Assembly (NCBI RefSeq): GCF_000003605.2
Contig: NW_003150759.1
Coordinates: 157,177-194,532 of the forward strand
Origin: Saccoglossus kowalevskii
Lineage: Eukaryota > Hemichordata > Enteropneusta > Harrimaniidae
DNA: 37,356 bases
Direction: 5' to 3'
Shown: in pieces, positions 5,734 through 37,356 of the stretch
Layout: the number at the start of each line of letters is the position of its first letter
Numbering within the stretch: position 1 is the stretch's first letter
Notes under the pieces: generated by a model
The model's database searches: none
Told to the model about the DNA's origin: nothing
Seen by the model: the letters and a program-made list of their open reading frames with translations, nothing else
Position numbers and translations under genes: made by a program

Positions 5734-5888
5734 AATGATATAATTGTATACATAGACGCGAATTTTGGTTATCATGGACTATTTTTTATAATATAGGTTT
5801 TAAATATATATTACACCAACAATTATACTTTATAATTGCGTTATAATAAACTGTAAAATGTTTCATGTTGAATAAGCGTGAGATGCAC

Positions 5889-12381: not shown

Positions 12382-12984
12382 CAAATGTCGCTCACTGATC
12401 GATACTGGCTCGCTATCTGCAATAAGTTGTTTTATAAAGTGGAATACATACATGTTTTTTTAGTAACTATAGCAACGAATAACGCCGTTATATTTGTCGT
12501 CAGGTGGGGACAACCGGTTCTTGTCAACCAGTTACTGTGCACACGCATGTGCGTAAAACGTGAAACAAGTGCCACGGCCTGTAGGGATTGCGTGACAGTT
12601 ATGTTTTGTCCTCGAAAATTACAGGCTTTAAAGCTCGGGTTGGAATTGCAAATGATGCATGGTATATATGTAGGTCATTGAACTCTAAAAACTAATTAGA
12701 AATATACAAAATTACATTATGTATTTGAGGTACTCGTTTGATCAGATTGTCTAGAAGTTTACCCTATGGTTTTATTTTATTCGGTTGTTCACTAAACTCA
12801 GATAAAAATATATATTGACCAAACTACTTCGCACACAAACAGCTCAAACTTCCATGAAAATGCTGAATTGTGGACCATTTGTCATGTATTCCGATGTTAA
12901 AAAGTTCTCACCATATCTCAAAATTTCGTTTGATTACATACGGTGAAACATTGTATGCAGTTATAGGATGGGTGCTTGAGGTAG
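12382..12984. other. Non-coding stretch, no gene seen
   Basis: The spacer between two same-orientation family A copies. One 98-codon open frame without recognisable features. Confidence 0.5.
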
Positions 12985-13150
12985 TTAAAGAGAGAGGGTC
13001 GTCACCTGCGCACGCGCGGGAACTGAGTCCCAAGCCACCATAACAACACACGCTAAAAAAAGCAAAGGCTCATGGGTAGACCCTTGTTTGTAAACAATGA
13101 CATGCTATGGCCATCTGACGCATGCGCAGGTGACGACTCCCCCGCTTTAA
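12985..13150 (+). mobile_element. MITE family A, copy 3 (full length)
   Basis: Runs from TTAAAG to CCGCTTTAA with TTAA at both edges. The left terminal repeat carries TGCGCACGCGCG at 13007-13018, a perfect match to the NRF1 consensus YGCGCAYGCGCR. It lies about 600 bp from copy 2 in the same orientation. Confidence 0.92.
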
Positions 13151-16100
13151 TATTTATTATGAAATTCAGATGATTATTATTCATTTTATAGGAAATAATG
13201 CTTTAACATGGATTGAGGTTACTATGGGAATTATTCTCCAAAACAAATATTTCGTACTGGAATGAAATCGTGAAAAGTTGACCATGATAAAAAAATCAAG
13301 AAATCCTGATAAATTGTTCGCTTTATTTACTAGGTTGAATACCTGCAATATACCTTAATTAAAACTAGTGTATAGGTGAAACCAAACATATACAACCCAG
13401 GGCAGACTGCCATCTTACTCTCACAGCACATCAAACTTAAAATCCAGTAAGACCAAATTGACTGGAAATTAACTGAGATGTCATGGACTAGCGTGTAATC
13501 TGAATGGATTATTGAGTAAACAGTCAACAGTTACGCTCCGATGAGCCCGGGTACAATTGTTTGTGTACAACCTCGATGAAATGTGTGTGTTATAAACACA
13601 TATCAAGGATCACCAACCACACATACGCCTGTGGCAGTCACGTGTATGACCTTGGTTTCAAACGAAAATGAGAATGTGTGTGTTATACAGGTAGTATACG
13701 TCACATGGAACCCTCAACGGTGCGACAGTGACGTTGTAATTAATCCACATTTTTCGTAGTCGTAGCTACCCTACATTGTATATCAGACCACTCTAAAGTC
13801 TATGTTTATACCGCGATATTAGCCGTAGTAAGTTAATGCCGAAAAGGATTGCCAAGAGACAGCTATAACAAATTATTTTTCTTACAATTTGTTTAAATTC
13901 AACTTGATAGTGACTTGACATACTTTTCTGGTTCGCCAATATAGCATTGGGCTTAATGTTGAGTGGAATAGGTAATGCGGTCGCTTAGTATAAAAGTTTC
14001 TCTTCTGAGGGTCATAAACTCTGCACCCCCTGCCCAATGCTTTGTCATCTGTTACAATGGTACGTCTTATTACGCTGTAATCCATCAATCAATCGGTGCT
14101 GGTATATCACTAGTATATACAACGCGGTCGGCGTTAATAATTATTATAAAACTCTTGAACGAGGTTATTAAAGTGCGTTGTTATGGTTTATATCGTGCGC
14201 TCAAATTGTGTTTTCATTTCCAATCTAGCGAATCTGCCTCTAATTGCATTTTCCAGCCTCCCTTTCACGGTCGCTGAAAGAGAATTCCGTTTTACAATGA
14301 CATTGTATTGTGAAGCAAATCTGATTGGCTGTCTTGCTAATGATATGCATATTCAACGTCATTAGTGGGCGTTCCCGACAGCCCGATATCAAGCATTGTC
14401 GGTGTCTTGTGTTAATAACCAGTGGGTATCTAATAGGAACCACCGTTCCAAAGCGGACAGACAGACACTTGAATAATAGTCAGGTAGTACGCACAGGAAT
14501 AATATACACCTCAGCTGTCTAGGGTTTTTGACCATCTTCAACCTGTTGCCATGGATACCACACAGCAGGTGAGTTATACAGTACGTGATGTCCATGACAT
14601 TTACGCTATAAGGTGATAGTAAAACAAAGTGTGTGGTTTTAGTACTGGTGGTACTGAACGCCGAGTTCCATCTGAGCTTGTAAACAGTAGCCACAGGTGG
14701 CAACTTTGAAGATACAAAATTGTATTCACGGTGTCAGAAGTATTTCACTGCCCACAGCTAAATTAAAATGACCATGAGTTGTGCCACTGATGGTTTAAAT
14801 AACTGGTAATCGAGGGTGTTTTTGTTTTTTTTCGCTGGGGGCATTTCATTCAGACTAAATAGATTATTTTACGTTGTTTGAAATAATTGTAATTTGCGGG
14901 AGCCTGGCTTGATTACCCAGCTTGCGGTCCCCGTCAAAGTCGCTAGTCCTTGGTATAATTGTATTCCCTTGGGAGCAGACGGTTCGAAGGTTGAATGGAG
15001 AACTTGGATTCTTCACCATGGACGACCAAGCCATTCCTCACGCCTGATATCACGTATCCTGACTTTATAGCTAAACTTACTCCGTTACATAGAGCAGAGC
15101 CTTATTTTGTCACTATCAACCTCGCCGTCGAAGGCAAATATAAGTTGTACGAATTCTCCAATTCTGTCCTGTAATCTCAGTGTACACTTCCTGACTATTG
15201 CTTAAACGTGTTATCACAAATTATCCGGTAAATCGTAATATTTACTAAAATTGTTGATAATATTAAATGTCCAGTGAACTGTATGTTTGACGTTCATTGT
15301 TTGACGATTACCTATTCATTGCGAAGTAAAAATACCTATATTGGTTATTATTGTGTGTGTTTTTTTCTGTTAGCGCGTAACTTTTGTACGTAACTAGCGA
15401 TTGTTCATTTTTTTTCATTTAAAGTGAACAAGTTGTTTGAATTTATGATTATGCATACTTTACTCACTCACCAACAGCCCAATAGCACGTGCGTTTTCAG
15501 TAACTTGGACACCCGACTAACGTCCATGTTTTCACGAAACAAACACACCCGTTGTGGACCCACAAAGAAGCTAAGCGACAGACAGAAAGTTGAGGAATTG
15601 TCAACATGGTGTTTATTCTGTTCAGATTGCGTGTCAAATTTACAATAGGACAATTCAAATAACCGTAGAATGTTTGCCCTACCCAACCTGACCTGGCATA
15701 TTTTACACAGTGTTATAAGAAGAAATCTTGTGCAAAGACTAGGTGTGTATGCATCTTCGGGAATTTTCAATGACGTCAAACGTATTCACTTGATCAATTA
15801 TATCGCTTACTGAACAACGACACTGGACGATGAAGATAAACTTGACTTTGGATAGTAAATTTAAGTCACTTTGGTCTTGGTGGATGCCCCCAGATGAATA
15901 AATAGATTTGGAGACGGTCAGAAAGCTACAACCTGAGTTTGGTGTTACATATGGAATGTGAAGGACGCCCATAAAGGATGCATTGCGCTCACCAAATCCT
16001 CCATGTCTGTTCAAATTTGTTATTTGCGAGTATACGAGCGTCTTTCATTGACTAATTTACCAAGCGAATAATTTACACTGACGTTATTTGTCGAGACTGG

Positions 16101-17730: not shown

Positions 17731-17763
17731 TATATACCATGGAGGTTACCTCCATGTATATAC
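17731..17763. mobile_element. Mini-hairpin insert H1 with perfect 7-bp direct repeats
   Basis: The palindrome CATGGAGGTTACCTCCATG (17738-17756; two 9-bp arms around a single T) is flanked on both sides by TATATAC (17731-17737 and 17757-17763). The direct repeats abut the palindrome exactly, as a target-site duplication would. The insert has the CA...TG ends common to all five members in this window. Confidence 0.8.
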
Positions 17764-19096
17764 CCACAAATGAAATATTTACGTGTACGTACCAGTAATT
17801 CGGGGCACATGCATATTCATGACGTTGTTTAACAGGCAATATTGATCAAAAACATTGTAAAAATTGCCTCTTTTCTTTAAGACGTAAAACTACGTCGGAT
17901 CGTGTCGTGTATCGTAGATTCGATTGTTTGGAACATGTTTGTTTGAACGTAGCAACAGGGGAAATCCCGTCGTTTAGGTAAAATGATCTGAGCAACTCAA
18001 ATCAAAACATATTTATAGCAAACTATATATTTTATGAAAGCTGAAATATTCAGGAATTTGATAATTCATGTTTTGCAAAGATTGTGGGGACATGTGACTG
18101 GAGATTAACTGGACCCTGTCAAAATAACAAATCAAACAATTTGATTGGGGATTTTCAAAATAATTTCGCTGTGAAAGGTTCTTATAAAGTGTATGTGATT
18201 ATTTTCTAATAATTATCATAAATACTAATTTTTCTTATTAAGTCACTAATGAGGCTCAGGGGTCATACTACAATTACCACATGCTGAATAATATTGATAT
18301 TATCGAATTATAAACATTCTCCCACGGGTCTCAGTGTGGCCACAGAATGTGTTTCTAAAACTTGAACATTGACTCACGTTTTTGTTAATACATTCTGAGT
18401 TATTGGGATTGCATTGCTTTTTGCACAAAAAATCACATTTATTAACAATTATATCATAACTGTTTCACGATATTTAAAAGGAAGATTGTGAACAATCAGA
18501 TATTTTACACGCGTTATACACATCGCATAAGACGCACATCTACTCGGAACACGTACGACGTCGACGCGACGCGACGCGATCATCACTGGACAGGAACGTG
18601 ACGCGCACAGTTTCGCATTGTGAAGTCGCAGTTCCGACAACACAGTACTGTCACGCGATTTCATGCCGCATAACGTAATATATATATACTTATCTGTGTC
18701 TTAAGTATGTTACGCCTGCTTGGAGCTTTAAGCGTACACACCAACATTAAAACACGTACATAGGTTCCTGACATTTCCGGAGTCATGCCGTTCCTAGGCA
18801 ACTGCTATATTGCTGTGGGATATTTGTGAAATCCTTAATTTCAACACGAATCAAGCACAGATAATACTAAAATTGTTATCAAAATACTTCCTTTGTGTGT
18901 TATTGATTTTTTTAACATGTATGTGTGTTTATTATTCAAATTCGTCGACCCTCGGCGCTGACAAGTTTGACCTATTTTATATTTACTTGTCTTTCAATGA
19001 TTCATCTTCCACTATATCATATGGAAATATTTCATTTTATAAAACACTTAAATTCTTGTCTTTCACGGGGAGTGTCACATTACGTCTACCGCGTTA
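17764..19096. other. Non-coding stretch, no gene seen
   Basis: AT-rich sequence with a small GACGC/GACGCG-type tandem run near 18559-18580. No supported gene. Confidence 0.5.
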
Positions 19097-19260
19097 TTAA
19101 AGCGAGGAGTCGTCACCTGCGCATGCATCAGATGGCCATAGCGAGTCTTTGTCTACAAGCGAGCGTCTACCCATGAGCCTTTGCGTTTTTAGCGTTTGTC
19201 GTTATCGTCGCTTGGGACTCAATTCCCGCGCGTGCGCAGGTGACGACCCTCCCGCTTTAA
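19097..19260 (-). mobile_element. MITE family A, copy 4 (full length)
   Basis: A minus-strand copy from TTAAAGCGAGGAGTCGTCAC to CCCTCCCGCTTTAA, with TTAA at both edges. It keeps both terminal repeats, the GAGCCTTTGCGTTTTTAGCG block and TCGCTTGGGACTC. Confidence 0.93.
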
Positions 19261-22200
19261 AGTCTATCATTTCTGTAATCACAAATGTCCTTGTGTTATG
19301 TATTAGTATATTCGCTGCTGTGTTTCGACCGGAAGTCGGTAAATACATTTTAAATTAAGAAAATCAGCGTAAGTTATAATATTGCACCCGGTATGTGTCA
19401 CGAGTTTGGTACCCATGTCTCATTGCGGTTTTAAACTAAATTTAACTTTTTTTTAAATTTCATTTCAAATGAAGAAAATCGGCATGTGTTATAATGACTT
19501 CTTTCTGTGCTGAACTAAATGTGAATTTTATATCATATTCATTTGCTGTGTCTGCAAACAAACCCTGATCAACGGATTACACTGAAATTGTAAATCGGGG
19601 AAGTCGTCAAGTTAACCAATCTTCTCGGTCATGGTGGATTTAAATTTCAAGGATTTGAAAAACTAGTTTATTGTCGCAAGAAAATCGGGCGAACACGTTG
19701 TGTGTATAACAAGAACATGAATGATTTTTTATATTTGGAGGTTCGAGTTTTTGTAATCTCGGATTACCGTGACAACATGTGTACTGTAAATGCATTAATT
19801 ATTCGCTCGTTTTTAATTATGCTATTTCGCTAAAAAGTAAAATCCGCTAAAGTAAATTCACGTTAAATTTATGTAAAATAACAATGGAACTCATTTCCTT
19901 TGCAAATTCGTGAACTTAAAACCCGGTGAATATGCTCAAAGTAGTGAAAATATATTGGTGAGCTATCAATATGTATATATTTACATTTATATAAATATAT
20001 CCATCATTTCCCGGATATAGATATGCCATTGAAGTACACGCGGGGTGATTACAAGAATCAACGGCCGTTAAAATCGATGAAATTAAACCATTCACTTGAT
20101 GGGAACGAGCATTGAAACCGACGACATGATTTGATTTCTCTTCTAGTCATTTGCAAATAATGTTCGACCACGTGACTGTGTACATATGAAACACATTACG
20201 CGATGTGAAGCATGCGCTAAGAACTAATACGTCACTGTCATTTCTGTACACTTCAACCATAATGCATTGCATTGTTAGTGTCGAACCGGCGTGACAGCGG
20301 ATAACGCGGGCTATAGAAAGTTAACCGAACACGAACGAGAATAAACACACGTATTGCTTTACTCGGAATGACTTGATTAATGAACGTGTTAGTGGGGTCA
20401 GTGTTTCCCGGTGTTGCTTCCAATTCACGAGTTTATGTTTTATTAACACAATAACGATCTGCTTTCACTCGATGCATATATGAACGGTTCAGTTAAGTAC
20501 ATTGTACGTACGACTGCCATATGAGTACAACATCATGAAACTGACACTGTCGTTATCGCGAAATTATTATAACTAGCGTTATCTGTTATTGAGATGGCGC
20601 TATGGATACCAAGCCCGCAGTATGACCCTGTACCATCGCAATTAATTAAAAATAATCCTCGATACCAGTACCGTGAGTATGTTTTGTTTTAACAGGGTTT
20701 TTTTTGACAACAGTTACACGCTCATTACAGAGGTGCACCTTGCCCAGTCACCATGGTTTCACTTAATTTAGATACGCCTGCTGTGCTTAATTGATAGCAT
20801 TGTAGGCCTGTATTTGATTAACGCCGCGGGTCGGACTTCACAGTCAATGGGCGTCTGTATAGCGATCTACGCCTGGTTGAGGGAAGTTTTTGTTGTTGCT
20901 GATGTTGATGCTTGAAGCAAATTTATGTACATACGTGGCCGTATATCTGGCGCCTGTGTAAATTAGCTTCGACGCTACAATTTACAAATCCGAGGGTGAC
21001 TGGATTCCAGGTCAAAACCCCTATTACCCTTTATACCCCAATTCCAGATCAACATTTTAGAACTATCACCCCGAATAACGTCACGTTCCCATAATGACGT
21101 CATTTGTAGCTAGCTACCCCCCCCCCCCTCCAAGCTACAAATACTTAGCAATGACATTTTGTGTACATGAATTCTGGGCACCTTACGTATATAGCCTTCT
21201 AAACATTGGTTGGCACAGGACGCCACAAAATAGGAATAATGTGCGAAACTATCTGACCAAAAGTGGAGACGCACTATTTTGCAACGCGAACGTTGTTTTA
21301 ATTGTAGATTACTTAATCCTTGGTACATTACAACTTGAAAAGTAGTCCCGGGTTTCTATGCACAAGTGCATATAAGTGTCCATTATAGTAATCGCGCTTT
21401 ACGGTGAACCGTTGTTTTAACACTGAGTGTGGGTTGATCTCACCTGCAACTGTTATGGATGATGAAACCGACACAGGTTTCAAAAGTGCTACTTATATTG
21501 ATGTGTTCAATCATCATTTCACGGACACGTCTCGTTCAATGAATGGTTGGTGTATTACTTGGAATCAAAATACCACTTGTGCGTGTTCACGCACCACCGG
21601 AATAGTACGTGATCTCAATTTAATTGAGTTAGAATGTGAGTCTCTCGAGAAATCGACGAAAATGCTCTCAAGACAGAGTTTGGCCGCTCATGATGGTTTT
21701 CAAATAACCGCACCAATATGTGCACGACTTTAAATTTTGTAATAAGTCCGATAAGATTTGTTTCTTGGGAGAGATTATTCTAATGTAAAGTTATACCATA
21801 AGTTCGCGTACTTTATAAACAAGTTAAATGCACGATGCATTATCTTTGACGTTCTGTGACCTTCGACCTTTGTCCTTATCCACCGAAAGTGGACCTTCCA
21901 GTCCTTCGTCCATAATGTGTTTTACTTACGTATCGACTGCGCGGCCTTGGTAGTTCGGGTAGATCAGATGGCAAATGGAACCCACCAACAAACCAAGCAT
22001 GGCATGACCGCATTCATAGCCTGTATCAACGATTCAGTTTTTTTTTTTTGCAAACCGCTTTTTACATCGTTGGTGGCAACCATACGTATGGCATTACGGT
22101 GTTGATGGGTTGGCAAATTAAAAACGTATTCGAAGCTAGTATAAACATACAACTAGTGAATCGTACCGGTGACGTTTCATTATTCGCTGCCTGCCGAGGT

Positions 22201-22477
22201 ATCGAAGCGAGTTCCCCTTTACCTCAAACAGGTTTTTCAAGACATGCTCAGTAAATTTTACTATAATATGCATACCCTAGAGAGAAAGGATAGAAAACTG
22301 ATTGAACTAAGTTAAAGATTTAGTGAACCGTGTTTACTCTTTATACGCTAGGGTCCAATAATATACATAACAATTCGCGAGTTACGTGCAATGTTGTAAA
22401 TTATTATACATCTCTCAACGTAACGCCATAAGTTACAGCGTGCGGCAATTTTGCGGTATTGCACTCGGTATTTTCAT
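19261..22477. other. Non-coding stretch of 3.2 kb, no gene seen
   Basis: AT-rich sequence with a C12 run at 21117-21128. Open frames reach 109 codons (21404-21733) but have no recognisable features. Confidence 0.5.
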
Positions 22478-22481
22478 CCTA

Positions 22482-22512
22482 CCATATTTGGAAATGCGAA
22501 TTCCAAATATGG
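22482..22512. repeat. 31-bp perfect hairpin without direct repeats
   Basis: CCATATTTGGAA (22482-22493) and TTCCAAATATGG (22501-22512) form a perfect 12-bp stem around a 7-base loop. The flanking bases do not repeat each other and the ends are CC...GG rather than CA...TG, so I keep it apart from the mini-hairpin inserts. Confidence 0.7.
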
Positions 22513-22677
22513 AACGATCACACGCGTAAGTGTCCTCAAGTAAGAAAAACAAACATGGCAGTCCCCAGGGTTTGACCGGACCCCATACAAAGAAAGTTTA
22601 CTCAATCTGTTCTAAACTGTTTGTATTTCGGCATTCCCATGATATATCTTTGAGAGGAAAAGATGTATAATAATAAG

Positions 22678-22785
22678 GTTATTACAAGAACACCGAAAAG
22701 TATGCACTCAGACAGTACGCGGCGCTTCGATACTCCCGCTGCACTCGCTGTCTCCGTGCATACTTTTCGGTATCCTCGTAATAAC
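22678..22785. repeat. 108-bp foldback with 38-bp arms
   Basis: The left arm 22678-22715 pairs with the right arm 22748-22785 around a 32-base loop. A 16-bp core, ACCGAAAAGTATGCAC, and the outer GTTATTAC/GTAATAAC ends are perfect; scattered mismatches lie between. No flanking direct repeat is evident. It could be a foldback MITE, or a transcribed hairpin of pre-miRNA size, although such a perfect 16-bp core is long for an animal pre-miRNA. Confidence 0.7.
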
Positions 22786-22806
22786 TCTCAAGTTCATATT
22801 ATCAAA

Positions 22807-22869
22807 ATGAACAACAGCGATTTTGACGACGAAGAATTTCTAGCAGTTATGCTTGTACCACCTAGCTGA
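22807..22869 (+). other. Short acidic open frame after the foldback
   Basis: ATG at 22807 opens a 20-residue peptide, MNNSDFDDEEFLAVMLVPPS. An acidic DDEEFL stretch near the N-terminus is seen at the start of some Harbinger-type (HARBI1-like) transposases, but nothing transposase-like follows before the stop. It may be a remnant or chance. Confidence 0.15.
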
Positions 22870-22977
22870 ACTACCATGTCAGAAGTACGTACATTATTAT
22901 CGATTTCAGGTCTACGACAATGAGCTATAATATACTGATACTCTGTTTAGTCGTGATTCTCCGAGTCGGGGTAGACT

Positions 22978-23033
22978 GTACATTACATTACATAAAATTC
23001 GAACGCGCACTACGTGACGACTGTATCGCTTTA
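22978..23033 (+). mobile_element. MITE family C, fragment (right half)
   Basis: This matches the right half of family C (TACATT...ACAT, AAATTCGAACGCGC, CTACG, GACGAC...CGCTTTA) with several substitutions. Its right terminus runs directly into the left terminus of family A copy 5. Confidence 0.7.
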
Positions 23034-23190
23034 TAGCGGGGAAGTCGTCACCTGCGCATGCGTCAGATGGCCATAGCGTGTAATTTTTTACAAACAATCG
23101 TCTATCCATGAGCCTTTGCGTTTTTAGCGTGTGTTGTTATTGTCGCTTGGGACTCAATTCCCGCGCGTGCGCAGGTGATGACCCACCTGC
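23032..23190 (-). mobile_element. MITE family A, copy 5
   Basis: A minus-strand copy starting TATAGCGGGGAAGTCGTCAC and ending near GGTGATGACCCACCTGC, where the outermost bases have decayed. The internal blocks (GGCCATAGCGTGT, GAGCCTTTGCGTTTTTAGCG, TCGCTTGGGACTC) are intact. It abuts the family C fragment on its left. Confidence 0.88.
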
Positions 23191-23596
23191 CAAAACCTTC
23201 GAATGCCAAAGTAAACTTTCGCCACGATTTACAGGTTAACAGGAAAAGGCTCTAAGCACTTTTTTTCAGTACACCTATAGTATAAGACAAAAATGTCGAC
23301 ATAGATTCGGTTCAGTCGTTGCCTTGGTTACAAGAGAGCGACTATACTGACATGCGAAATAAACTGCCTACATTAATACGTAAGAATATTGGTGAAAGCT
23401 GCCACGATATTGTGTTTTTGAATAAGGTACAATAACACTTGTTGAACTGATGGATGGAACGATCTAGGCGTATCAAATCGATTTCATCGTGCTTTTAAAG
23501 ACGGTTGTTCATATTACTTTAGTTACCATGACAACGGTTCTGTCATCTGCAGTTCATTATATAACGTTTTCCGTCATGCATACGTGTCAAAATAAA

Positions 23597-23646
23597 NNNN
23601 NNNNNNNNNNNNNNNNNNNNNNNNNNNNNNNNNNNNNNNNNNNNNN
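23597..23646. other. Assembly gap (50 N)
   Basis: A run of exactly 50 N marks a scaffold gap of unknown true length. Features may be missing or wrongly joined here. Confidence 0.99.
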
Positions 23647-24463
23647 TTACGAAATCACTTTGGTTACAACTCATGGAGACGGAAATTTCTAACGTTAATT
23701 GCTTTCCAATTGCTATTTTTTTTATATTAATTTGTTTAGTTCTTGTTATTACTAATCGAAATACAACATGATGACGCCATTACATGTACACTGTAATGAA
23801 ATTACGGTTTGTATATTAAAACAGCGGGGGGTTAGTCACACAATTCAATCATAAAATCTCCGACTTCGTGATGTTCACGCTCTTGGGAGGGTGTCGGCGT
23901 AAAATGTCATCTATCAGAATTGTTTATTTGTTATCAAGGCGGAAAGTTCCCTTTCTAAGAGAAGAAAATATTGCGTTTACTTCATTACAAACTAGACCGA
24001 ATTAAAAATTCGTAATTGGATTTGTCAGTACCAAGTAATACAGACAAGAGACAGTTGTTAATATCCGGCCTTACACCTTGTCCACCGCCTTGTTATGTTC
24101 CGGGTCGTAGCAGTTAATATTCTGACGTACGCGTAATGGCTTTTGATTTCCTGATACGACGCAAACTAAACGGTTGTCGGTCCCTTCCACTGAACGGTTG
24201 CCTAGAGCTTGTCCGGTTACTTGTTACCATGTCAACCACTATGGCATAAATGCCTGTTATGTAAACTAAACTAAACGATTATTTTCAAGATCATAGTAAA
24301 TCATGTAGTTTTTAATCGTCACGGAAGTTCGTGAAATATAATAAAGTTTAAAATGAAACTAAAAGTACTTATTTGTTGAACTTGGCTGACTCTCTCTAAC
24401 CATGGAGGTTAACCAAATTCACCTGAATGCACATCACTGTTCGCTTGCGACGAGACGCTCCGG

Positions 24464-24948
24464 TGACGTAAACGGCGATAACAGTGATTGGTTGTCTAGT
24501 CGTTCTCGTTTAGAATATAGCACATATCATTCGCTCGTTCCCGGCGTCCTTTGCGAATGGCGGGTAGAACGCAGGTAACTAGTAATCGCCATATTGTTCC
24601 ATTTGGGCCGGTTTTCCGGCCGGAAGGAACGCGACTGAGTGACGTAATTTGAAAACATTCTAAGTTCCGTTCTGCGTAAACGTGTCTGTAACACTACAAT
24701 AAAGCCATGCTCATACATTCTGCCTGCTTAGACTTACATATTTGGGATGTTTCTGACATTCCTCGCTGTCTCCATGGAAGGTACTAACCTTCCATGCCGT
24801 TTCTGTGCAAATTTATAACAAAAGGAACAGTTTTTTATTCGCCCAACTTTCGAAAGTAAAAGAAAATCCCTGAACGGCCACGAGCGTAAGCACTGACGTC
24901 AGGTAACCAAGGGAAATAGAACAAGCAACAAGAAAGTGACGGACCAAT
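24464..24948 (+). promoter_or_regulatory. Candidate promoter region upstream of the host gene
   Basis: A relatively C+G-rich patch holds three CRE-like sites (TGACGTAA 24464-24471 and 24640-24647, palindromic TGACGTCA 24894-24901), an inverted CCAAT (24487-24491), a CCAAT (24944-24948) and ETS-like CCGGAAG/TTCCGG near 24615-24626. Two good donor-like sites, CAG|GTAACT (24572-24580) and CAG|GTAACC (24900-24908), could close short untranslated first exons spliced to the acceptor at 26038. Its position 1.1-1.6 kb upstream of the coding exon fits. Motif-based inference; the mini-hairpin at 24766 lies inside it. Confidence 0.4.
24766..24803. mobile_element. Mini-hairpin insert H2 with imperfect 7-bp direct repeats
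   Basis: CATGGAAGGT (24773-24782) and ACCTTCCATG (24787-24796) form a perfect 10-bp stem with a 4-base loop. The 7 bases before (CTGTCTC) and after (CCGTTTC) match at 5 of 7 positions, and both differences are C/T transitions. I read this as an older member of the set with perfect repeats at 17731, 25562 and 31827. Confidence 0.6.
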
Positions 24949-25561
24949 CAGAATGCCGTATTCTTGTGGCTTGGTACGCCATGACATTTGAGGCGGGAAC
25001 CAGCCAACACATATCACAGACACGGCTTGTCACTAGAGGGCGCTAATATATTTCTTTATACTGTGTCAGTTTAGCAGGTACATGGTTTATGCGAGTAGGT
25101 GATCGGACCCTTGAAATATAATTAAATGAAAATTATATCTAGATCCGGCCCCACCTATTCTAATTTAACAAATAAAGCCGTATCTCTAACATACCACCTT
25201 TCTTACGTTTGCAACAGAGGGGTTATCTCCCGCTTAGAACTACAATCATCGATGTGTTATGACATCGTCAGCTTTTGTATTTCAGGAAGTTTGATGCACC
25301 ATGGGAATCAATTATTTTAAACTAAACTCAGTAGCATAATTGGTCGTAGCTTGAAATCAAAATGTACTGGGAAACCGAGACGCAATCGTCTATTCAACAA
25401 CGTAACGAACGTTCTGGGCAATTCACAAGCTATTCGTGTGACAGAAAGTGTTAATACGTTATGTTTTTAATAGTAGTAATAGTCAAAAAGCGCGAAAGTT
25501 AAATTGGCCTTCGGGTAATTACTTAAACAAACATTGGTAGTGCATATACACTGCCGTATTC

Positions 25562-25607
25562 GTCTATACACAGTCACTCTACTAGAAGAGAGTGACTGTG
25601 GTCTATA
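25562..25607. mobile_element. Mini-hairpin insert H3 with perfect 7-bp direct repeats
   Basis: CACAGTCACTCT (25569-25580) pairs perfectly with AGAGTGACTGTG (25589-25600) around an 8-base loop. GTCTATA lies immediately on both sides (25562-25568 and 25601-25607). At 32 bp it is the longest insert of the set. Confidence 0.8.
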
Positions 25608-25728
25608 CTTCAGTTAGCATCATGTTTAGTAACTGTTATAGAATTTCTGAATCACGTAACAATTTGTAATACATTTTACCCGTGTTGCTACCTTAAGAGA
25701 AATCTCAGCAACCACTGCGGTAATTCAA

Positions 25729-25888
25729 TTGAAGCGGGAAGGTCGTCACCTGCACACGCGCGGGAGTTCCAAGCGACGATAACAACACACGCTAAAAACG
25801 TAAAGGCTCATGGGTAGATGCTTGTTTGTAAACAATGACACGCTATAGCCATCTGACGCATGCGCAGGTGACGACTCCCCCGCTTTAA
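25729..25888 (+). mobile_element. MITE family A, copy 6, inside the host-gene intron
   Basis: A full-length copy from TTGAAGCGGGAAGGTCGTCA to CCCGCTTTAA, with a short deletion in the GAATTGAGTCCC block. It ends 150 bp before the 3' splice site of the gene. Its NRF1-like motif reads TGCACACGCGCG, one base off the consensus. Confidence 0.9.
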
Positions 25889-26038
25889 GGTCTCATACTG
25901 GCTATGTCTTTTTTTTTCACTTTAATTTTGTATGATTTTTGTGTGTGTTTTTTTTTTTTTTTTTTGTATATTGTGTATTGTAAATTGCATGTAACGTTTA
26001 TATAAATATTTAATTGCTCGTTTTCTGTTTATTTACAG
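25889..26038 (+). other. 3' splice site of the last intron
   Basis: T-rich intron end with runs of T at about 25910 and 25949, then TTTTCTGTTTATTTACAG ending at 26038: a good polypyrimidine tract and AG acceptor 19 bases before the start codon. It implies at least one upstream untranslated (or differently coding) exon, so the transcribed unit extends well left of the ORF. Confidence 0.75.
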
Positions 26039-26057
26039 AAAACTCCTCTGGGAGAAG

Positions 26058-27377
26058 ATGGCATCAGAGGGTATAGAAATGGCCAACTTACCAAATCCGT
26101 CAAATACAGCGGACTCACCCGGGCGTAAATTACCCAAATGGTTCGTGGATCAAACAAACACAAACCATCAACAGGCCGCATACCTGGCTAAAATATATCG
26201 AATGAAAAACCAGCTAATACAAGAAGAACGAAGTAAAATGAAAACAGCGGTAGATCGTGTTTCCCATCGAGGAACGGCGAATAAATACAAAGCGCCACCA
26301 CCGTTAATATGGAAGCCGGGCACGGGGCCAACAGTTGCCATGACAGCAAGGGAGCGGCAGCTTGAGAAGATTCGTAGCATGCGACAGCGCCCTCCACATC
26401 CAATGCTTCATCCAATTCTGGGACAGACAGTGTTCGATTCGCCTCGGAGAGCGAGTAGCGAACCCAAACTGAAAACAGATATGGAATCAACAAGTTTGAC
26501 ATTTCCGCGAAAAAATTCATTCCTCGACGCATTTTTGAACAATAGCATGGAAGGTAACGGTTCCAGCTTTTCGCAGTTACGTTCGAGTGAAGGAAACCAC
26601 CCAGGGGTATCCTCATTAATGAAAAACATTATCCCCACGGCGAGTATACCAAATATCGGACGACGAGCTGTTAATACAAGGGAGAGAATAGGAGGGTTCA
26701 CGGTCAAGAAAGCTGAGCACCCACGCGACAAAGAACACGATTCGAAACCCAGGGGTAAACTATATAAAGTTACGGAAAGACACGGACAAAGACGATATCT
26801 GAAAGCCGATTCGGATGAGATTGACCTTTCACCCGAGACTTATCGGTTTGATCTACCGTATGAAGACAATGTGTCTCGATGGTATAGGAAAGGTGATCGC
26901 ACGTTACTGGTCCCTAACAGCACGCCTGTTTCCTTCGCTGAACTTAGAGGGCGCGAGATAGATGACGCTGTTATCAAACAAGTGAAATGGAGCAACGATT
27001 TAGTCGTCCTTCGGAGACCGAGACAATCGGGATATTTTGGTCATTCACATAGCAACGAAGATGAACTGATTGGAAAACAGCGAGAGGGTATCAAACTACC
27101 GCAAATCGCCAACAATAATAACTCTGTATTCCAACAGGAGTCATACCGTGACGCCGATAACGTCGACGCCGAGTGCCCTGTTTGTGTTGTGGAGAGGACG
27201 TCGGACGGCAGTGGTTCACCCAATAACAAAAAACACATGATACACATAGACATGCCTACGTTGGAGATGAGCGCAGCCAACAGCCCAGTGCAACCACCAA
27301 ACAAACACTCCCCACTTCCGCCACCACCAGTACAAACCAGTTCTACTGGCAAAACACTTCGGCCCAAATCAGACTGA
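26058..27377 (+). CDS. Uncharacterised basic, probably disordered protein (439 aa)
   Basis: I do not recognise the family. The frame is open for 439 codons in a window where other frames rarely pass 150, and follows a good acceptor at 26038; GAAG precedes the ATG, giving a purine-rich start context. Residues 1-24 are polar. Residues 25-68 look helical and basic (KLPKWFVDQ, then AAYLAKIYRMKNQLIQEERS). Residues 74-90 form a proline-containing KYKAPPPLIWKPGTG segment. A second basic helix follows at 97-112. RRAS at 130-133 is a PKA-type motif. Residues 230-320 mix basic and aromatic residues (KLYKVTERHGQRRYLKA, FDLPYEDNVSRWYRKGD) and could be the folded part. One CPVC motif is at 373-376, and PLPPPPVQ at 419-426 could bind SH3, WW or EVH1 domains. 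No signal peptide or membrane segment. The whole visible coding region is in one exon. A scaffold or cytoskeletal role is only a guess. Confidence 0.88.
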   Translation: MASEGIEMANLPNPSNTADSPGRKLPKWFVDQTNTNHQQAAYLAKIYRMKNQLIQEERSKMKTAVDRVSHRGTANKYKAPPPLIWKPGTGPTVAMTARERQLEKIRSMRQRPPHPMLHPILGQTVFDSPRRASSEPKLKTDMESTSLTFPRKNSFLDAFLNNSMEGNGSSFSQLRSSEGNHPGVSSLMKNIIPTASIPNIGRRAVNTRERIGGFTVKKAEHPRDKEHDSKPRGKLYKVTERHGQRRYLKADSDEIDLSPETYRFDLPYEDNVSRWYRKGDRTLLVPNSTPVSFAELRGREIDDAVIKQVKWSNDLVVLRRPRQSGYFGHSHSNEDELIGKQREGIKLPQIANNNNSVFQQESYRDADNVDAECPVCVVERTSDGSGSPNNKKHMIHIDMPTLEMSAANSPVQPPNKHSPLPPPPVQTSSTGKTLRPKSD

Positions 27378-28390
27378 TTCTAATGGCTGCCTGCAATCGA
27401 ATATGCAGTCCTTTTCCAGTTTTTTTTTTCTTCTCATCACTATTGAGCTTTTGGATTTATTTTCTTGATTTCTGTCCATATTTTTTTTATCAAAAACCTC
27501 CAGCCCCCCCCCCCCAGATTTTAAATGGCGACCCTTAAACAAACACTACACATAACGAGTCTAGTTCTCTCAAATTCCTAGCGAATTGGCTAACTGCTTG
27601 CTTGAGTTTTGACTAAACGATTGGCTTTCGAATTTCGCTGGCGCCGGTTTGTGATCGCGTCCACTCTTGGCGAGTCTATATTGCATTAGGGGACATAGAA
27701 TGTTTTTACGCATCCTCAGGTTGGTACATGTCTGGATTCCCCTGAATGATTTGAGCCCGAAAAAAATGGCCACTGTCAGCTGGCGCGATAATATTATAAA
27801 TGTGATTAATCTACCGATATTTATTATATGAGGTTAACCTTCTTGAATACTGCTTGAAACTAAATAGACAAGTTGAGAAACAGTTTCCTACAAATCAGGG
27901 AGGAAATAACAAACTTTCACACTCAAACAATCCGTTGGGGTAACATTAAGCAAGCCGCTGGAAAAATAGACCTCATTCGTCGTTTTTGTGTGGACCCGAA
28001 GAGCATAGAATACTTTCCCTGGTATATTTCAAAGCGAAATCGCCATCCAACTGTAAGACCGTCGCTGATTAGCTCCTAAAGCATGATGATCGTCCCCTAC
28101 TGTTACATAGATTCGCCTAAAGTGGGCGTGACCGCAAGACGGCGCCAGCGAGATTCGAAAGCCAACCCTTCAGTCAAAATCCAAGCAGTATGAGACTTGC
28201 TGTAAAGAAACACTGTCGTTTGGTACGTGGAAAATATCCCCAACCCGAATTTATTCACGACTGTAACATAATATTAATATTAATATTACTAATATTACTA
28301 CACTGATGTTATATTTTACTTACCACAATTCGTTTTCTGTGTGATCGCGATATCACTGTAACCTCGATGTACACTGAGTATGGGGCTCTG
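27378..28390 (+). other. Probable 3' untranslated region and downstream spacer
   Basis: The sequence after the stop is T-rich with a C12 run at 27504-27515. No AATAAA is seen in the first kilobase; the first clear one is at 28613-28618, beyond a family A copy. The 3' UTR is therefore either long or uses a variant signal. No second gene is recognised. Confidence 0.45.
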
Positions 28391-28547
28391 TTAAAGCGGG
28401 AGGATCGTCACCTGCGCACGCGCGGGAATTGAGTCCAAAGCGACGATAACAACACGCGCTAAAACCGCAAAGACTCAAGGATCAAGGTAAACAATGACAC
28501 GCTATGGCCAACTGACGCATGCGCAGGTGACGACTCCTCCGTTTTAA
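28391..28547 (+). mobile_element. MITE family A, copy 7
   Basis: Runs from TTAAAGCGGGAGGATCGTCA to CCTCCGTTTTAA with TTAA at both edges. It has a small internal deletion in the AGACGCTTGTTTGT block. TGCGCACGCGCG (28413-28424) is a perfect NRF1-type motif. Confidence 0.92.
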
Positions 28548-29114
28548 GATCAGCGTATTGAAAAACAAACTTTCGACCATCTACACGGAGATTGATTATG
28601 AATAGTTTTGATAATAAAACGAGATATGCAGACAATTTATATTTTACATAAACATGACAATTTACAGCAGTGGTGGTTGTGAACGCATTTTGAACATAAC
28701 TATGCCCGCTGTTTAATTTACTACACCAGCTATATTTCTTAATGAACAGCGCCAGCAGCGGTCTTGTATATATTAAAAACATTTTCAAGTTGATAACACA
28801 CAGAGACAATTTGTATCCCAGTGCATTAACGATCAACCTTGTACCGGCAAATATAATTTTTGACTTTTCTGTACCAAGTCGTTCTGAGTCATAATCGTCT
28901 TCTTCCATTTATTTACCATATTGTACACCTGTAATTGCATTCTTATTGTAACAAACTAACGTGGATATCCTGTGCTTTGTTATTTTGTAAGTTTTATAAT
29001 TAAACAGTATGTTTCCGATACTTGGCCAATTTACCAACTTCGCTGTATAATTGAAAAGAGTCTGTATATGTGTGGAAGGTACAGAATGGGAGTAAACGTC
29101 ATGAAAACGAATGA

Positions 29115-29217
29115 CCAATCAGCATGTGTTTCAGATAGAAGGTCGGTACGGGTTTTCTACTGTCTATGTATATATGTTGATTGGTTCTCGGTAATGGAAG
29201 AGAGACACTCTGATTGG
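29115..29217. promoter_or_regulatory. Cluster of three CCAAT boxes
   Basis: CCAAT at 29115-29119 and inverted CCAAT (ATTGG) at 29180-29184 and 29213-29217 lie within about 100 bp, each in NF-Y-like context (GACCAATCAG, TGATTGGTTC, TGATTGGTGC). Clusters like this are typical of animal promoters. No gene start can be assigned; the minus-strand frame beginning at 28908 is the nearest candidate and is weak. Confidence 0.3.
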
Positions 29218-29515
29218 TGCTTATACCTAGACTTTCTCGTAGTGACCACTCGGTACCGTAAATAAGTCAGGGTTTTAGACAACGATTTTACCTTACTCCT
29301 TTGCATATCACTCGGCAATGCCTTATTCAAATAACGCTAAAATGTTTGCGACAAAAATTCTCGCCATGAAAATCTAATTTTCAGGCTCAGATATTTCGAT
29401 TGCTAATTCAGATTAGTAATATCTATTCTGCTATGGACATACGCCCTCTATCGTTCGAAAATATTTATTGGTACCCAAGCCTTGCAAACAATAACACCCA
29501 TATTGGTAAATGTAC

Positions 29516-29545
29516 GATCATCACCTGCGCACGCGCGGCAATTGA
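29516..29545 (+). mobile_element. MITE family A, terminal fragment
   Basis: Thirty bases matching only the left terminal repeat of family A, including a perfect NRF1-type TGCGCACGCGCG at 29526-29537 and the AATTGA that follows in full copies. The rest of the element is absent. Confidence 0.65.
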
Positions 29546-30670
29546 AAAATACACCGTAATTCTCTTTAAATACAAAATATACCAGTTGAATGCATGTATT
29601 TTCGATTATAAAAAAATGGGATGTTGCCTATGTGGTCTGCAGATACTTTATGGCAGTCAGTGGTCAACAAAGTTTTTTTTCATATGACTTTTCCCAAAAA
29701 CACACAAGCCAATCAGGAAAACTTCATAAACATAGTGCAGACTTCATCTTTCAGCTTAGCACTGGGTCAAAATAAAAATAAAGTCAAAATTCACAGCGTT
29801 TCTTGCCTTTAAAACAATATTTGGATAGCTGCTGTGAATTTGTCTACGGAGACAGTGGAGTGTCTCGACCTACTGACCCCAGTCTTTCTGAAACAGGAAG
29901 TGTTGGAAGCGCTCAACTTATGAAGCAGGTCCATAACGGACAGGAACGGGGTTTTGCCCAGAGGAGATGCAATCCGATTACAATACTTAAAACAAGTGTG
30001 ATTGCGTAAAATGAAATGAGTGAGATTTTCGCAGCTTTGTGAATAAACAAGGATGTTAACAAAGCAGCAGTTTGTCTTGACAAACAATAACGTAACGAAC
30101 TCGCCCATTTACGTGGTGTCTCGAGTTATGTACGAGTATGTGATATCATCTCGCAATTCGTTTCATTCATCTCAATTCCCGCGAGATCTCCGTCGCATTT
30201 TACACTACTGACATACCATCATCTTATAAATCCCTGCTAAAATAAATGTAGGTATTAAAATAATCCATATACTGTGAATTAAAATAAAAACAACTTGGTC
30301 ACCGTCACGTAACAGCAAAAATAGTCCACTACTTCAGCAAAGTACACGGTATTATGTGCGCTGTATTCGATATTCCCTCTGCAGACAGAGACACAAATGA
30401 TTGAACATTTCGTCACGTGCCGACATCTTTTGAAGCGAACGTAGCATTCGTTAATGGCAAAGAAGCATCATTGTGGAGAAATAACCTTGATTTGTTTTGC
30501 ATTCATTTTTTTTTCACCTGATAAGAAAAATGTTATGTTCTGTGTCAACACAATATTAATACTGGCGATGGTCGTCACGCAGCGCGTGTTCGAATGTCAC
30601 CACCGCCATTTAACCAATGTATTTAGTGCTGACGATAGCAAACTAATTCAATATTTGATTCTCTGTTTCG
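29546..30670. other. Non-coding stretch, no gene seen
   Basis: AT-rich sequence with overlapping short frames; another CCAAT motif at 29709-29713. No supported gene. Confidence 0.5.
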
Positions 30671-30827
30671 TTGGAGTGGGAGGTCCGTCACCTGCGCGCG
30701 CGCTGGAATTGAGTCTCAAGCGATGATAACAACACACGCTAAAAACGCAAAGGCTCATGGGCGTATTGTTTCTGAACAATGAGACGGCCATCTGACGCAT
30801 GCGCAGGTGACGACTACCCCGTTTTAA
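30671..30827 (+). mobile_element. MITE family A, copy 8
   Basis: A near-complete copy whose left edge has decayed (TTGGAGTGGGAGGTCCGTCA) while the right end reads GACTACCCCGTTTTAA. The middle keeps AACAACACACGCTAAAAACG and GCAAAGGCTCATGGG, with a changed segment around 30764-30785. Confidence 0.9.
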
Positions 30828-31067
30828 TAGTACCCAAGTTTGGGATTCATCAAGTCCAAATATGTCTAGTATGAATTAGTTTTCTCTAACGCCAATATGC
30901 ATAAAAGTATTTATTCTATTGAGCAGCAGTTATTAAGATGAAGTCAACAACATTTTCTTGGCCAAAAATAGCATTTTCACAAAAATATTCGCTGGAATTC
31001 AAGATATAGTCACGAAAAGTTCAATTCTAATTCCGTGGTGGACATCCAAGTATCGAACCAATCGGAG

Positions 31068-31200
31068 TTAAAGGTCAGTGGTCGTCGTGCCGCGTCCTGT
31101 TCGATATGGGACTCATAGCGACGTATACAACGCGTGTAAAATACATTGTTTATTTACATGAAATTCGAACACGCGCTACGCAACGACCACCGCGCTTCAA
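31068..31200 (+). mobile_element. MITE family C, copy 2
   Basis: A 133-bp copy very close to the one at 7858-7990. It starts TTAAAGG and ends CGCGCTTCAA. Its right edge is followed directly by repeat D. Confidence 0.88.
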
Positions 31201-31367
31201 AATAGGTTTTCAAAATAACATTTTTGACCAAAAGTGACAAAATTATTTGCCAAAATTGCAAAATTAAAGATATCATTGATATAATCAAATCTAATGGGGG
31301 GCACCTAAGATACACATATACCCCAGTCTTTGTTAGTCGCAGTCAGATATATTGCCCACATTTTTGC
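31201..31367 (+). repeat. Repeat D, copy 1
   Basis: About 170 bp that recurs at 33647-33822 with high similarity: CATTTTTGACCAAAAGTG, TTATTTGCCAAAATTGC, ATATAATCAAATCTAATGG, ACACATATACCCCAGTCT, TTAGTCGCAGTCAGATATAT, ending CCCACATTTTTGC. It has no ORF and no obvious terminal repeats. In both places the end of a family C element lies on its left. Confidence 0.85.
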
Positions 31368-31826
31368 TACAGCACAACACATGTTTGATATCAAATATCA
31401 AAGAATTTGGAGTAGAGGTTTTTTAAGATGGAGATGAGAATACTGTTACCATAGCGACTTCACGTACGCACATTTGTTCACATGCCGTTGCACTATTGTT
31501 GAGAATCAACAACTTGCATGTTTAGGGTATATTACAGGAATTTGATAAATAGATTGTTTACTAATCGTATTCAGTTGTGGCAACTTTGCAACGCTTTAAC
31601 CGTGAGACACTCCCTGGTAATCACGTGACCGTGCCAACTGCAGCTATTGGCTAATCGCATGTTTACACTGCCATGATTTAGGGGAGATTTTTTAATGAAG
31701 ACTTTATAAAAGAAATAGGATATAGGGATAACGAGACGTCACATCCGCTCAATGGATGAATAAAGCTGGACTATTTGTAACGAACCAATTTATATTCCTT
31801 TGGGCGGCCGAATATGGTATAATTAC

Positions 31827-31863
31827 GTGTAAGCATAGAGGTATAATACCTCCATGGTGTAAG
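31827..31863. mobile_element. Mini-hairpin insert H4 with perfect 7-bp direct repeats
   Basis: CATAGAGGTAT (31834-31844) and ATACCTCCATG (31846-31856) pair around one base with a single A.C mismatch. GTGTAAG lies immediately on both sides (31827-31833 and 31857-31863). The stem is close to H1 (CATGGAGGT), extended by AT at the centre. Confidence 0.8.
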
Positions 31864-32143
31864 AGAGTCAAGTTCCCTGAACACAACGCTAGTGTTCACA
31901 ATAATACACCAAAATGACAAAAATATTCGAAAAAATAGAGAATTGAAGATATCGTCACAAAATGGTCAATCTTATACAGGGTCGCCCAAAGAACTTATAC
32001 AAGGGAAGCGGGCACACCGTGTGACTGCGACGACGGACAATCATCTACACCAGCAGCTCCGCCTGACAACTTTGATGACAACGGAGGTAATTACAAAAAG
32101 ATTTTTTACAAAATAGAGTTCAATCTACGCAAATGTTGAACAA

Positions 32144-32363
32144 ATGGCCGCCGAGATCTCGTTGAGAGTGAGAGAAGCATGGGAATTGTTTTTGTCGGTC
32201 GAATAATGCTCCATTCTTACCCGCCATCGCGCCAATTGTTCCAAAAATCATGGTTACATTGGCCAGGAAAACACTGGACGCGAGGATGAGAGAAAAGTAA
32301 ATACTATTTGAGAGGTGATAACTTGAACAATTGTCTCGCTTTCAACGAGATCTCGGCGGCCGT
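32144..32363. mobile_element. MITE family B, copy 3 (best preserved)
   Basis: The left end ATGGCCGCCGAGATCTCG and right end CGAGATCTCGGCGGCCGT form an almost perfect inverted repeat that extends inward to TTGA/TCAA (about 22 bp). Internal blocks GAATAATGCTCCATTCTTAC, GTTCCAAAAATCATGGTTAC and ACTATTTGAGAGG match copies 1 and 2. No ORF; about 220 bp. Confidence 0.85.
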
Positions 32364-32374
32364 TTTCTCCTAAG

Positions 32375-32417
32375 GTGTAGTCACAGTCCCTCAACTGTAG
32401 AGGGACTGTGTTGTAGT
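32375..32417. mobile_element. Mini-hairpin insert H5 with near-perfect 7-bp direct repeats
   Basis: CACAGTCCCTC (32382-32392) pairs perfectly with GAGGGACTGTG (32400-32410) around a 7-base loop. The flanks GTGTAGT (32375-32381) and TTGTAGT (32411-32417) match at 6 of 7 positions. The stem is a close relative of H3 (CACAGTCACTCT): the change from A to C in one arm is matched by T to G in the other. It lies 11 bp beyond family B copy 3. Confidence 0.75.
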
Positions 32418-32678: not shown

Positions 32679-32795
32679 TTAGGGAGAGTCGTCACCTGCG
32701 CATGCGTCAGATGGCAATAGCGTGTCATTGTTCACAAACAAGCGTCTATCCAGGAGTCTTTGCTTTTTTAGCGTGTGTTGTTATCGTCGCTTTAA
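32679..32795 (-). mobile_element. MITE family A, copy 9 (one terminal repeat deleted)
   Basis: A minus-strand copy from TTAGGGAGAGTCGTCACCTG to GTTATCGTCGCTTTAA. The segment between the two CGCTT motifs of full copies (TCGCTTGGGACTC... and ...CCCGCTTTAA) is missing, so about 43 bp including most of one terminal repeat was lost by joining at a 5-base direct repeat. Confidence 0.88.
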
Positions 32796-35585: not shown

Positions 35586-35688
35586 TTAAAGGGAGGATCG
35601 TTACCTGCGCATGCGTCATAACGTGTCATTGTTTACAAACAAGCGTCTACTCATGAGCCTTTGTGATTTTGCGTGTGTTGTTATCGTC
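35586..35688 (-). mobile_element. MITE family A, copy 10 (one end missing)
   Basis: A minus-strand copy from TTAAAGGGAGGATCGTTACC to GTTATCGTC, where it stops; the whole TCGCTTGGGAC... terminal repeat is absent. It also lacks the AGATGGCCATAG block after GCGTCA. It breaks off close to where copy 9 has its deletion. Confidence 0.85.
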
Positions 35689-36671: not shown

Positions 36672-36731
36672 TAATATAATATAATATAATATAATATAAT
36701 ATAATATAATATAATATAATATAATATAATA
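36672..36731. repeat. (TATAA)n pentanucleotide array
   Basis: About twelve uninterrupted pentamer units directly before the LINE 5' UTR. Confidence 0.95.
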
Positions 36732-36734
36732 CAA

Positions 36735-37356
36735 TCGGGTGAACGCGGTGCTTTTCAGCGCTCCCCGATTTTCTGCCTGTTTTGCGTTTTTGCGCTCGTT
36801 GTGCGCCCGTGTTTCTACACAGCTGTATATATAGTGTGTCTACCTTTTGCGTGAGTAATTTATAGTTGTTGTTTTCGTTATTAGTGTGGGTTTTGGAGTG
36901 TTTTTGCCTTTGCCTTGGCAAGGTGGTCGGCAACCAAGATGGCTGCCGCTCACACAAGGCCACCGTCAACACCAACAGGTCACCTTACTAGAAACCATGC
37001 GGTACGGTGTGAAAACATTGATGGCATTCCTGTTGAAACTTATGTGGAGTCGGTTGCAGATTTAGTCGGGGCCAGTAATATTGTGGCTGCATCCCGTATG
37101 AACCGATCGGTTATTGTCTTTTTAAATAAGGTTACATGGGTCGACATGGTTTCTGCCGCTGGCCTTGACATTGGAGACCTCCATGTTTCTGTTGAACCTC
37201 TTGAACCCTCTACAAAAATTGTGCTATCAAATGTTCCCCCTTTTTTACCTGACAATTTTATTACAGATGCCTTAGCTAAATACGGGCGTGTCATGAGCGC
37301 GGTGCGAGCGATCCCACTCGGGTGCAAAAGACCAGCACTGAAACATGTAAAGTCTT
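36735..37356 (+). mobile_element. 5' end of a Tx1-like LINE (continues past the window)
   Basis: After the TATAA array the composition changes abruptly to a more GC-rich leader of about 200 bases (36735-36938), then ORF1. The element is therefore a copy with an intact 5' region, and at most its first 620 bases are visible. The ORF1 type puts it in or near the Tx1 group of L1-like non-LTR retrotransposons. The reverse transcriptase ORF would lie to the right of the window. Confidence 0.82.
36939..37356 (+). CDS. LINE ORF1 protein, N-terminal part (Tx1-like)
   Basis: An open frame of 139 codons from ATG 36939 to the window edge with no stop. The protein begins MAAAHTRPPSTPTGHL; residues 22-90 form a compact domain (ENIDGIPVETYVESVADLVG, then RMNRSVIVFLNK). 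A KIVLSNVPPFLPDNF segment at 93-107 looks like the first strand and loop of an RRM-type fold. The stretch IPLGCKRPALKHVKS at 125-139 matches the LGCK-x-P-x-LKHV pattern typical of ORF1 proteins of Tx1-type LINEs, in which an FRRQ motif and zinc knuckles usually follow. Such proteins bind the element RNA. The start is chosen as the first in-frame ATG after the leader; no break is seen in the visible part. Confidence 0.85.
   Translation, partial: MAAAHTRPPSTPTGHLTRNHAVRCENIDGIPVETYVESVADLVGASNIVAASRMNRSVIVFLNKVTWVDMVSAAGLDIGDLHVSVEPLEPSTKIVLSNVPPFLPDNFITDALAKYGRVMSAVRAIPLGCKRPALKHVKS

Follow-up and report, generated by a model that had tools for sequence, protein, structure and literature searches.

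What are the five very short palindromes (19-32 bp) that lie, each between two copies of a 7-bp sequence, in a 37,356-nt stretch of the genome of the hemichordate Saccoglossus kowalevskii (assembly GCF_000003605.2, contig NW_003150759.1, positions 157,177 to 194,532; hereafter the window)? A sequence-only reading had offered two answers, the smallest imaginable transposable units or what a hairpin-ended element leaves behind. We consider it highly probable that these palindromes are excision footprints of DNA transposons of the P superfamily. Footprints of this kind are known; here they are natural and number in the hundreds, and they do not represent a new class of mobile units. The two families discussed most are named after their tips, CACAGTC and CATGGAGG, the latter being tentatively assigned to P-superfamily footprints by analogy. 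The five units and their duplications, confirmed letter for letter in the window sequence, are as follows:

17738..17756, unstranded: probable footprint, CATGGAGG family, 19 bp, joined tips of ~9 and ~10 nt; the same core is present at 276 genome sites
17731..17737 (left) and 17757-17763 (right), unstranded: 7-bp duplication TATATAC, exact
24773..24796, unstranded: probable footprint, CATGGAAGG variant, 24 bp
24766..24772 (left, CTGTCTC) and 24797-24803 (right, CCGTTTC), unstranded: 7-bp duplication, 5/7
25569..25600, unstranded: probable footprint, CACAGTC family, 32 bp, full 17-nt left tip CACAGTCACTCTACTAG and 12-nt right tip
25562..25568 (left) and 25601-25607 (right), unstranded: 7-bp duplication GTCTATA, exact
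31834..31856, unstranded: probable footprint, CATGGAGG family, 23 bp, one arm mismatch (CATAGAGG/CATGGAGG)
31827..31833 (left) and 31857-31863 (right), unstranded: 7-bp duplication GTGTAAG, exact
32382..32410, unstranded: probable footprint, CACAGTC family, 29 bp, 14- and 13-nt tips matching two sub-tips
32375..32381 (left, GTGTAGT) and 32411-32417 (right, TTGTAGT), unstranded: 7-bp duplication, 6/7

The description of these units as hairpins with CA..TG ends and flanking 7-bp direct repeats agrees with the sequence, since 32 of 35 flank letters are shared at a register of 7 bp. At registers of 6 and 8 bp only 3/30 and 4/40 letters agree, so the edges of the repeats are sharp, and four of the five units lie between exact or 6/7 copies. 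A lopsided relative of the 24773 unit, with the duplication TATATAC, was found at C1739:210471. For comparison, 23 hairpins of the window were used, i.e. 22 non-simple ones with perfect arms of at least 8, together with 31834-31856 and its mismatched arm; simple-repeat hairpins were left out. CA...TG ends characterize seven of them, the five reported and those at 4862-4893 and 5820-5838, which have no flank repeat (1/7 match), and the flanks of the remaining 16 match at 5/7 at most. Pairing left and right flanks of different window hairpins gave no 7/7 match in 506 pairings, against three in the five own pairs. In 30 order-2 Markov shuffles of the window, CA..TG palindromes with exact 7-mers were absent, while three were observed. 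The assertion that three perfect 7-mer pairs are not due to chance is thus borne out.

The genome-wide search for such units proposed earlier was run in part, on the assembly that contains the window (572 Mb, 4,830 contigs). Match counts refer to the whole genome, and the sequences examined come from the matches listed. The motif CACAGTCMCTC followed by 0-30 nt and its inverse yielded 363 forward and 364 reverse matches and none with the reversed-pattern control; a palindrome of this family is usually counted once per strand, so these are strand matches. In the same way, CATGGAGGT followed by 0-30 nt and its inverse was found at 276 sites, again with no match for the reversed control. Among the 55 CACAGTC-family sites parsed (two nested rows at C310 were dropped), 43 have both flanks and were counted, 12 lacking one or both. 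The flanks agree at 7/7 in 31 sites, at 6/7 in nine and at 4/7 or less in three; no cross-site pair reached 7/7 (0/1,806), and repeat lengths of 4, 5, 6, 8 and 9 gave only 0 or 1 exact cases. For CATGGAGGT, 20 of the first 21 listed sites (one dropped) show 12 matches at 7/7, five at 6/7, two at 5/7 and one at 0/7, with 0/380 cross-site pairs at 7/7. Pooling both families, 43 exact and 14 6/7 duplications make up 57 of 63 sites with both flanks, and the flank counts of listed sites give a target of approximately (A/G)TTNAA(T/C), or RTTNAAY.

In a viral collection used as a control, the CATGGAGGT palindrome was present in nine contigs with flanks matching at 0-4 of 7, and therefore a palindrome by itself does not bring a flank repeat with it; two other scans of this collection returned 0 and 0 matches. 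The two exact patterns average ~0.04 per 37 kb (364 + 276 sites used) and the letters of the window hold three, a density biased upward because the window was selected for these units. Only one exact palindromic case was found in 200 kb of other contigs. Two site pairs within 3 kb among the 55 listed sites, compared with 0.1 expected, indicate that some clustering, as by local hopping, is possible.

The arms of the inserts are tips of recurring sequences, including CACAGTCACTCTACTAG, CACAGTCCCTCTATCAC, CACAGTCCCTCAACACC, CACAGTCCCTCCACAAA, CATGGAGGTAATAAGAA and others. Inserts of exactly 17 + 17 nt are found at C8:107923, C175:79037 and C519:12172. In scans allowing a spacer of 0-30 nt, inserts do not exceed 34 bp (2 x 17) in 44/55 CACAGTC and 45/50 CATGGAGG sites listed, and they are longer in the other 11 and five. 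Junctions vary from site to site and include microhomology, filler or copied insertions. The two sides are frequently trimmed unequally, overlap by a few letters or are separated by filler, many units being lopsided, such as L046, L052 and L061, where 17 nt are kept on one side and 4-6 nt on the other. Some of the longer inserts carry repeated tip pieces (C202, C310, C343). Among the 50 listed CATGGAGG sites, 44 distinct inserts were counted, and some sequences recur.

The stop of the tips is best seen in the CACAGTCCCTCTAT subfamily, in which 46 tips were compared with known element ends. They match over 14 nt (14 tips), 15 nt (9), 16 nt (13), 17 nt (8), 18 nt (1) and 19 nt (1), so that 44 of 46 end at or before nt 17, while the repeats of the elements reach 31 bp. 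In a second subfamily, all five 17-nt tips diverge at the next base of the sole longer copy known, L089. The 17-mer CACAGTCCCTCTATCAC has 80 + 83 genome matches (control 0). In 23 of its occurrences, contained in 20 fetched stretches, the preceding 7-mer appears again within 45 nt as an exact copy in seven and as a 6/7 copy in four; eight others read as ends of longer elements and four are unclear. Cross-pairs served as the control here, random positions being unsuitable as the sample holds tandem arrays (27% hits). With six at 7/7 and 30 at 6/7 among 488 cross-pairs, single 6/7 repeats near CACAGTCCCTCTATCAC are weak.

Several individual sites deserve mention. At locus L072 (C128:746490-746550), the 7-bp duplication of a CATGGAGG unit, CTCTATC, forms part of a CACAGTCCCTCTATC tip; one family is inserted here into the end or scar of the other. 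L073 (C135:214038-214101), the sole 0/7 case among the 20 CATGGAGG sites, has flanks, CATATAC and GTATATA, that come close to being inverse complements, as recombination between the ends of two copies might produce. L045, L051, L059 and L060 are four copies of one lopsided unit, and because of their common left flank, CATCTGAAAAC, it seems to be carried along in another repeat. Footprint-like units at L036:8161-8178 (tip CAAAGAC, duplication TTTGAAC) and L033:4160-4179 (tip CACAGTTACTAG, duplication GCATAAT) suggest further element families.

Longer elements with the same ends are present in the genome. L042 is an element of 318 bp, its ends alike over exactly 17 bp, within the 7-bp duplication ATTTCAC; L082 spans 616 bp, with the duplication GATACAT, and a further candidate, L083, measures 536 bp, its duplication agreeing at 5/7. 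Of the remaining 2-kb stretches, four in number, three revealed no second end and one contained a mere candidate, with a 2/7 duplication. Element ends extending past nt 17 (CACAGTCCCTCTATCACCRGTCT, up to 2 mismatches) gave 117 + 119 genome matches and none in the control. Five facing pairs hand-picked among the CACAGTCCCTCTATCACCRGTCT matches listed, all of the CACAGTC family and 1.1-1.3 kb long, each have exact 7-bp duplications, and their exact inverted repeats measure 31, 18, 28, 30 and 31 bp. Neither a longer element nor a transposase could be tied to the CATGGAGG family, the inverted-repeat test covering the CACAGTC family only. L043, considered as an element of 2.4 kb, was rejected, since a pair of footprints, of which the right-hand one has a poor duplication, is the better reading. 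The frame beside L084 has zinc-finger matches only, all below the cut-off.

The P-type transposase domain PF21787 was detected at 13 places in the genome (best E 3.4e-26) and in none of 14 control genomes. Three frames were confirmed, with E values of 1.1e-27, 3.5e-27 and 3.5e-19; one of the three also has a DUF1673 match below the cut-off, and THAP is absent from the matches of these frames, no genome search aimed at THAP having been made. For a frame of 610 amino acids, the P element transposase is the only PDB match at E <= 0.01 (E 0.0048). A CACCGTCCCTCAACACC tip precedes this frame on its strand at a distance of 2,533 bp and continues into CGGTTAAGAAACG, a near-match to CGGTCTGGAAACG of the short elements. 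The best tip of the second transposase region, with 3 mismatches, does not exceed chance, and in the third no tip occurs within 3 mismatches. A complete element with both ends and a P-type gene was not found. In addition, at L093 (minus strand, C1737:540645) a CATGGAGCTAAAAAAAG tip precedes a P-type transposase domain of the same strand by ~2 kb; as a lead, this locus is a possible parent of the CATGGAGG family.

These features can be compared with the Drosophila P element. In the account of PMC7776569, P transposase makes a staggered cut, with one strand opened where the element ends and its partner 17 nt into the 31-bp repeat. The fly excision junctions compiled in PMC2895639 (Table 1, section 7) consist of a duplication, a tip of up to 17 nt, microhomology or filler, a tip and a duplication, and the units of the window share this anatomy. 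In the 66 fly isolates of that table, both duplications are kept in 44; these have a median insert of 30 bp and arms of at least 9 nt in 36/44, the 22 isolates in which one duplication is partly or wholly missing being left out of the insert and arm figures. The fly data, as tabulated there, differ in concerning 8-bp duplications and one experimental element, whereas the duplications here are of 7 bp and the units natural, partly worn and derived from several tip families. The pointer of the sequence-only reading to P elements was therefore a good one.

By this comparison, an element would insert and duplicate 7 bp of the target. A P-type transposase, presumably one of those encoded in the genome, would later excise it with a staggered cut, severing one strand where the element ends and its partner ~17 nt into the terminal inverted repeat, and up to ~17 nt of each repeat tip would stay on the chromosome. 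The broken ends would then be joined, often at letters common to both or with added filler or copied insertions, into the arrangement of 7-mer, palindrome and 7-mer. The palindrome would form because the same inverted-repeat tip, up to ~17 nt long, remains on either side of the gap; inverted tips flanking a gap suffice, and a hairpin-ended element, as envisaged earlier, is unneeded.

Other members of the superfamily resemble these elements in part. Galileo also makes 7-bp duplications, as reported in PMC4168063 and PMC2775673, and its target has GT..AC symmetry (GTANTAC or GTATTAC). One footprint here (L050) has GTATTAC, but the pooled target is closer to RTTNAAY, and the long repeats of Galileo contrast with ~31 bp here; footprints are not described in the portions of these two papers that were consulted. 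P elements and P-derived miniature inverted-repeat transposable elements (MITEs) of Anopheles gambiae are similar in including short non-autonomous elements with P ends and repeats of 27-31 bp and differ in their 8-bp duplications, as far as PMC1562414 describes them; the terms "footprint" and "palindrom" are absent from its main text. Zebrafish Pdre2/THAP9 is a further P-type element of a non-insect animal, with an active transposase, and differs by 13-bp repeats and 8-bp duplications in the account of PMC10983969. Searching the literature for the tip sequences led to unrelated papers only. No natural catalogue of such scars appeared among the titles and abstract openings searched, a coverage that omits most subscription journals.

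The least improbable alternative, though an unlikely one, is that of extreme internal deletions, in which the element remained in place or was copied back, the tips alone surviving an interrupted gap repair. Incomplete copying followed by end joining gives most products after P excision in flies, according to the data in PMC2895639, and inserts above 34 bp do exist (11/55 and 5/50 listed sites). Copying should, however, spread lengths past the cut, and nearly all tips of the CACAGTCCCTCTAT subfamily end by nt 17. We regard as very unlikely the origin of the palindromes as footprints of another superfamily with 6-8 bp duplications, e.g. Dada or hAT. Dada duplications, of 6-7 bp, would suit the flanks, whereas hAT elements are not known to leave more than a few bases. 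P-type transposase domains are present in the genome, and transposases of other superfamilies were not searched for; the case against Dada and hAT is made by the cut length and one linked domain.

Ultra-small mobile elements, each palindrome itself inserting and duplicating 7 bp, are highly improbable. Every unit does have two inverted ends and a duplication, and the recurrence of some insert sequences would accord with amplification, but amplified units should have a common interior and the interiors of the palindromes differ by site. Many units combine a long tip on one side with a few nt on the other, unlike such elements, and P transposase reportedly requires internal binding sites beyond the tips (PMC7776569). 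With differing junctions and same-ended elements far longer than the palindromes (318 bp-1.3 kb), the first answer of the sequence-only reading, the smallest transposable units, is not sustained, while the second, the leftover of an element, is supported. Hairpins are common (22 in the window), and yet chance hairpins with chance flanks were rejected by the shuffles and by the flank cross-pairs, none of which reached 7/7 in the three sets against 3/5, 31/43 and 12/20 own pairs; the low flank agreement in the viral contigs points the same way, and the probability of this explanation is next to nil.

Several observations weigh against excision footprints of P-type elements. For two of the 46 CACAGTCCCTCTAT tips the match extends over 18 or 19 nt; it does so with the left end of L042 only, and the extra letters of one equally fit the opposite tip. 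Some CATGGAGG inserts (C560, C606) resemble 19 + 19 nt, and in six of the 63 sites with both flanks the duplication is 5/7 or worse. When palindromy was not required, CA..TG inserts with exact 7-mers were hardly in excess (locus L032, a tandem array, was left out). When the five window sites were tested for target motifs, the results were mixed, with p values of 0.015 and 0.004 for two motifs and of 0.077, 0.089 and 0.12 for three, and no palindromic target was found. For the 610-amino-acid transposase copy a single end was seen, the opposite end and the duplication not being found, and two further transposase regions, one of them L093, contain no tip within 1 mismatch. By the letters alone, 9 kb should hold 0.0005 tips with up to 1 mismatch, and by the empirical rate ~0.05 (1 in a 200-kb sample); as that sample held one, a neighbouring tip within 9 kb would arise by chance in about 1 in 20 cases, and three transposase regions were read for such tips.

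Excision footprints of P transposases are known from fly experiments, and here hundreds can be read from one assembly. We are inclined to view this genome as a deep natural archive of P excision scars (> 600 perfect-armed, in two tip families) that records cut sites (17 nt, perhaps 19 nt in one subfamily) and germ-line end joining; counting lopsided and worn ones, many further scars probably exist. Such an archive would suggest that many excisions were resolved by end joining and not by copying from the sister or homologue. With hundreds of scars in one assembly, sequence alone can be used to address two questions. One is whether P transposases throughout the superfamily, those of lineages with 7-bp duplications among them, make the 17-nt staggered cut, and the other is how animal germ lines have repaired such breaks over evolutionary time. 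If true, the archive records, without experiment, the cut positions of a range of P-superfamily transposases. Annotators should also be warned that a unit composed of 7-mer, palindrome and 7-mer can be a scar and need not belong to a novel class of mobile elements.

Within the window itself, longer CA..TG-type elements with 7-bp duplications did not exceed the shuffled background, and no repeat copy crossing a footprint was found that would reveal an empty site (700 bp compared on either side). No transposase was found among the 28 window frames of at least 100 amino acids, two matches below the cut-off belonging to unrelated families, and the window contains no Rfam match or tRNA. Its longest frame, 25995-27377 (+), 460 amino acids, looks like a real protein and has no Pfam or PDB match. 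Two MITE-like families are also present. The first, ~170 bp long with ends near AAAGCGGGAGGGTCGTCACCTGCGC, has about ten copies in the window:

12215-12386, 12982-13154, 19094-19264, 23031-23190, 25721-25892, 28388-28551 and 30668-30831: copies of the ~170-bp MITE-like family
5591-5733, 32682-32792 and 35586-35688: partial copies of the same family

The second, of ~225 bp with inverted ends near AAAACGGCCGCCGAGATCTCGTTG, occupies 32142-32366 and has relatives at 5886-6090 and 9279-9500; the unit at 32382 lies 16 bp outside one copy of this family. Tandem arrays with GTAAGTAA-type and TAATA units extend over positions 1-609 and 36672-36735.

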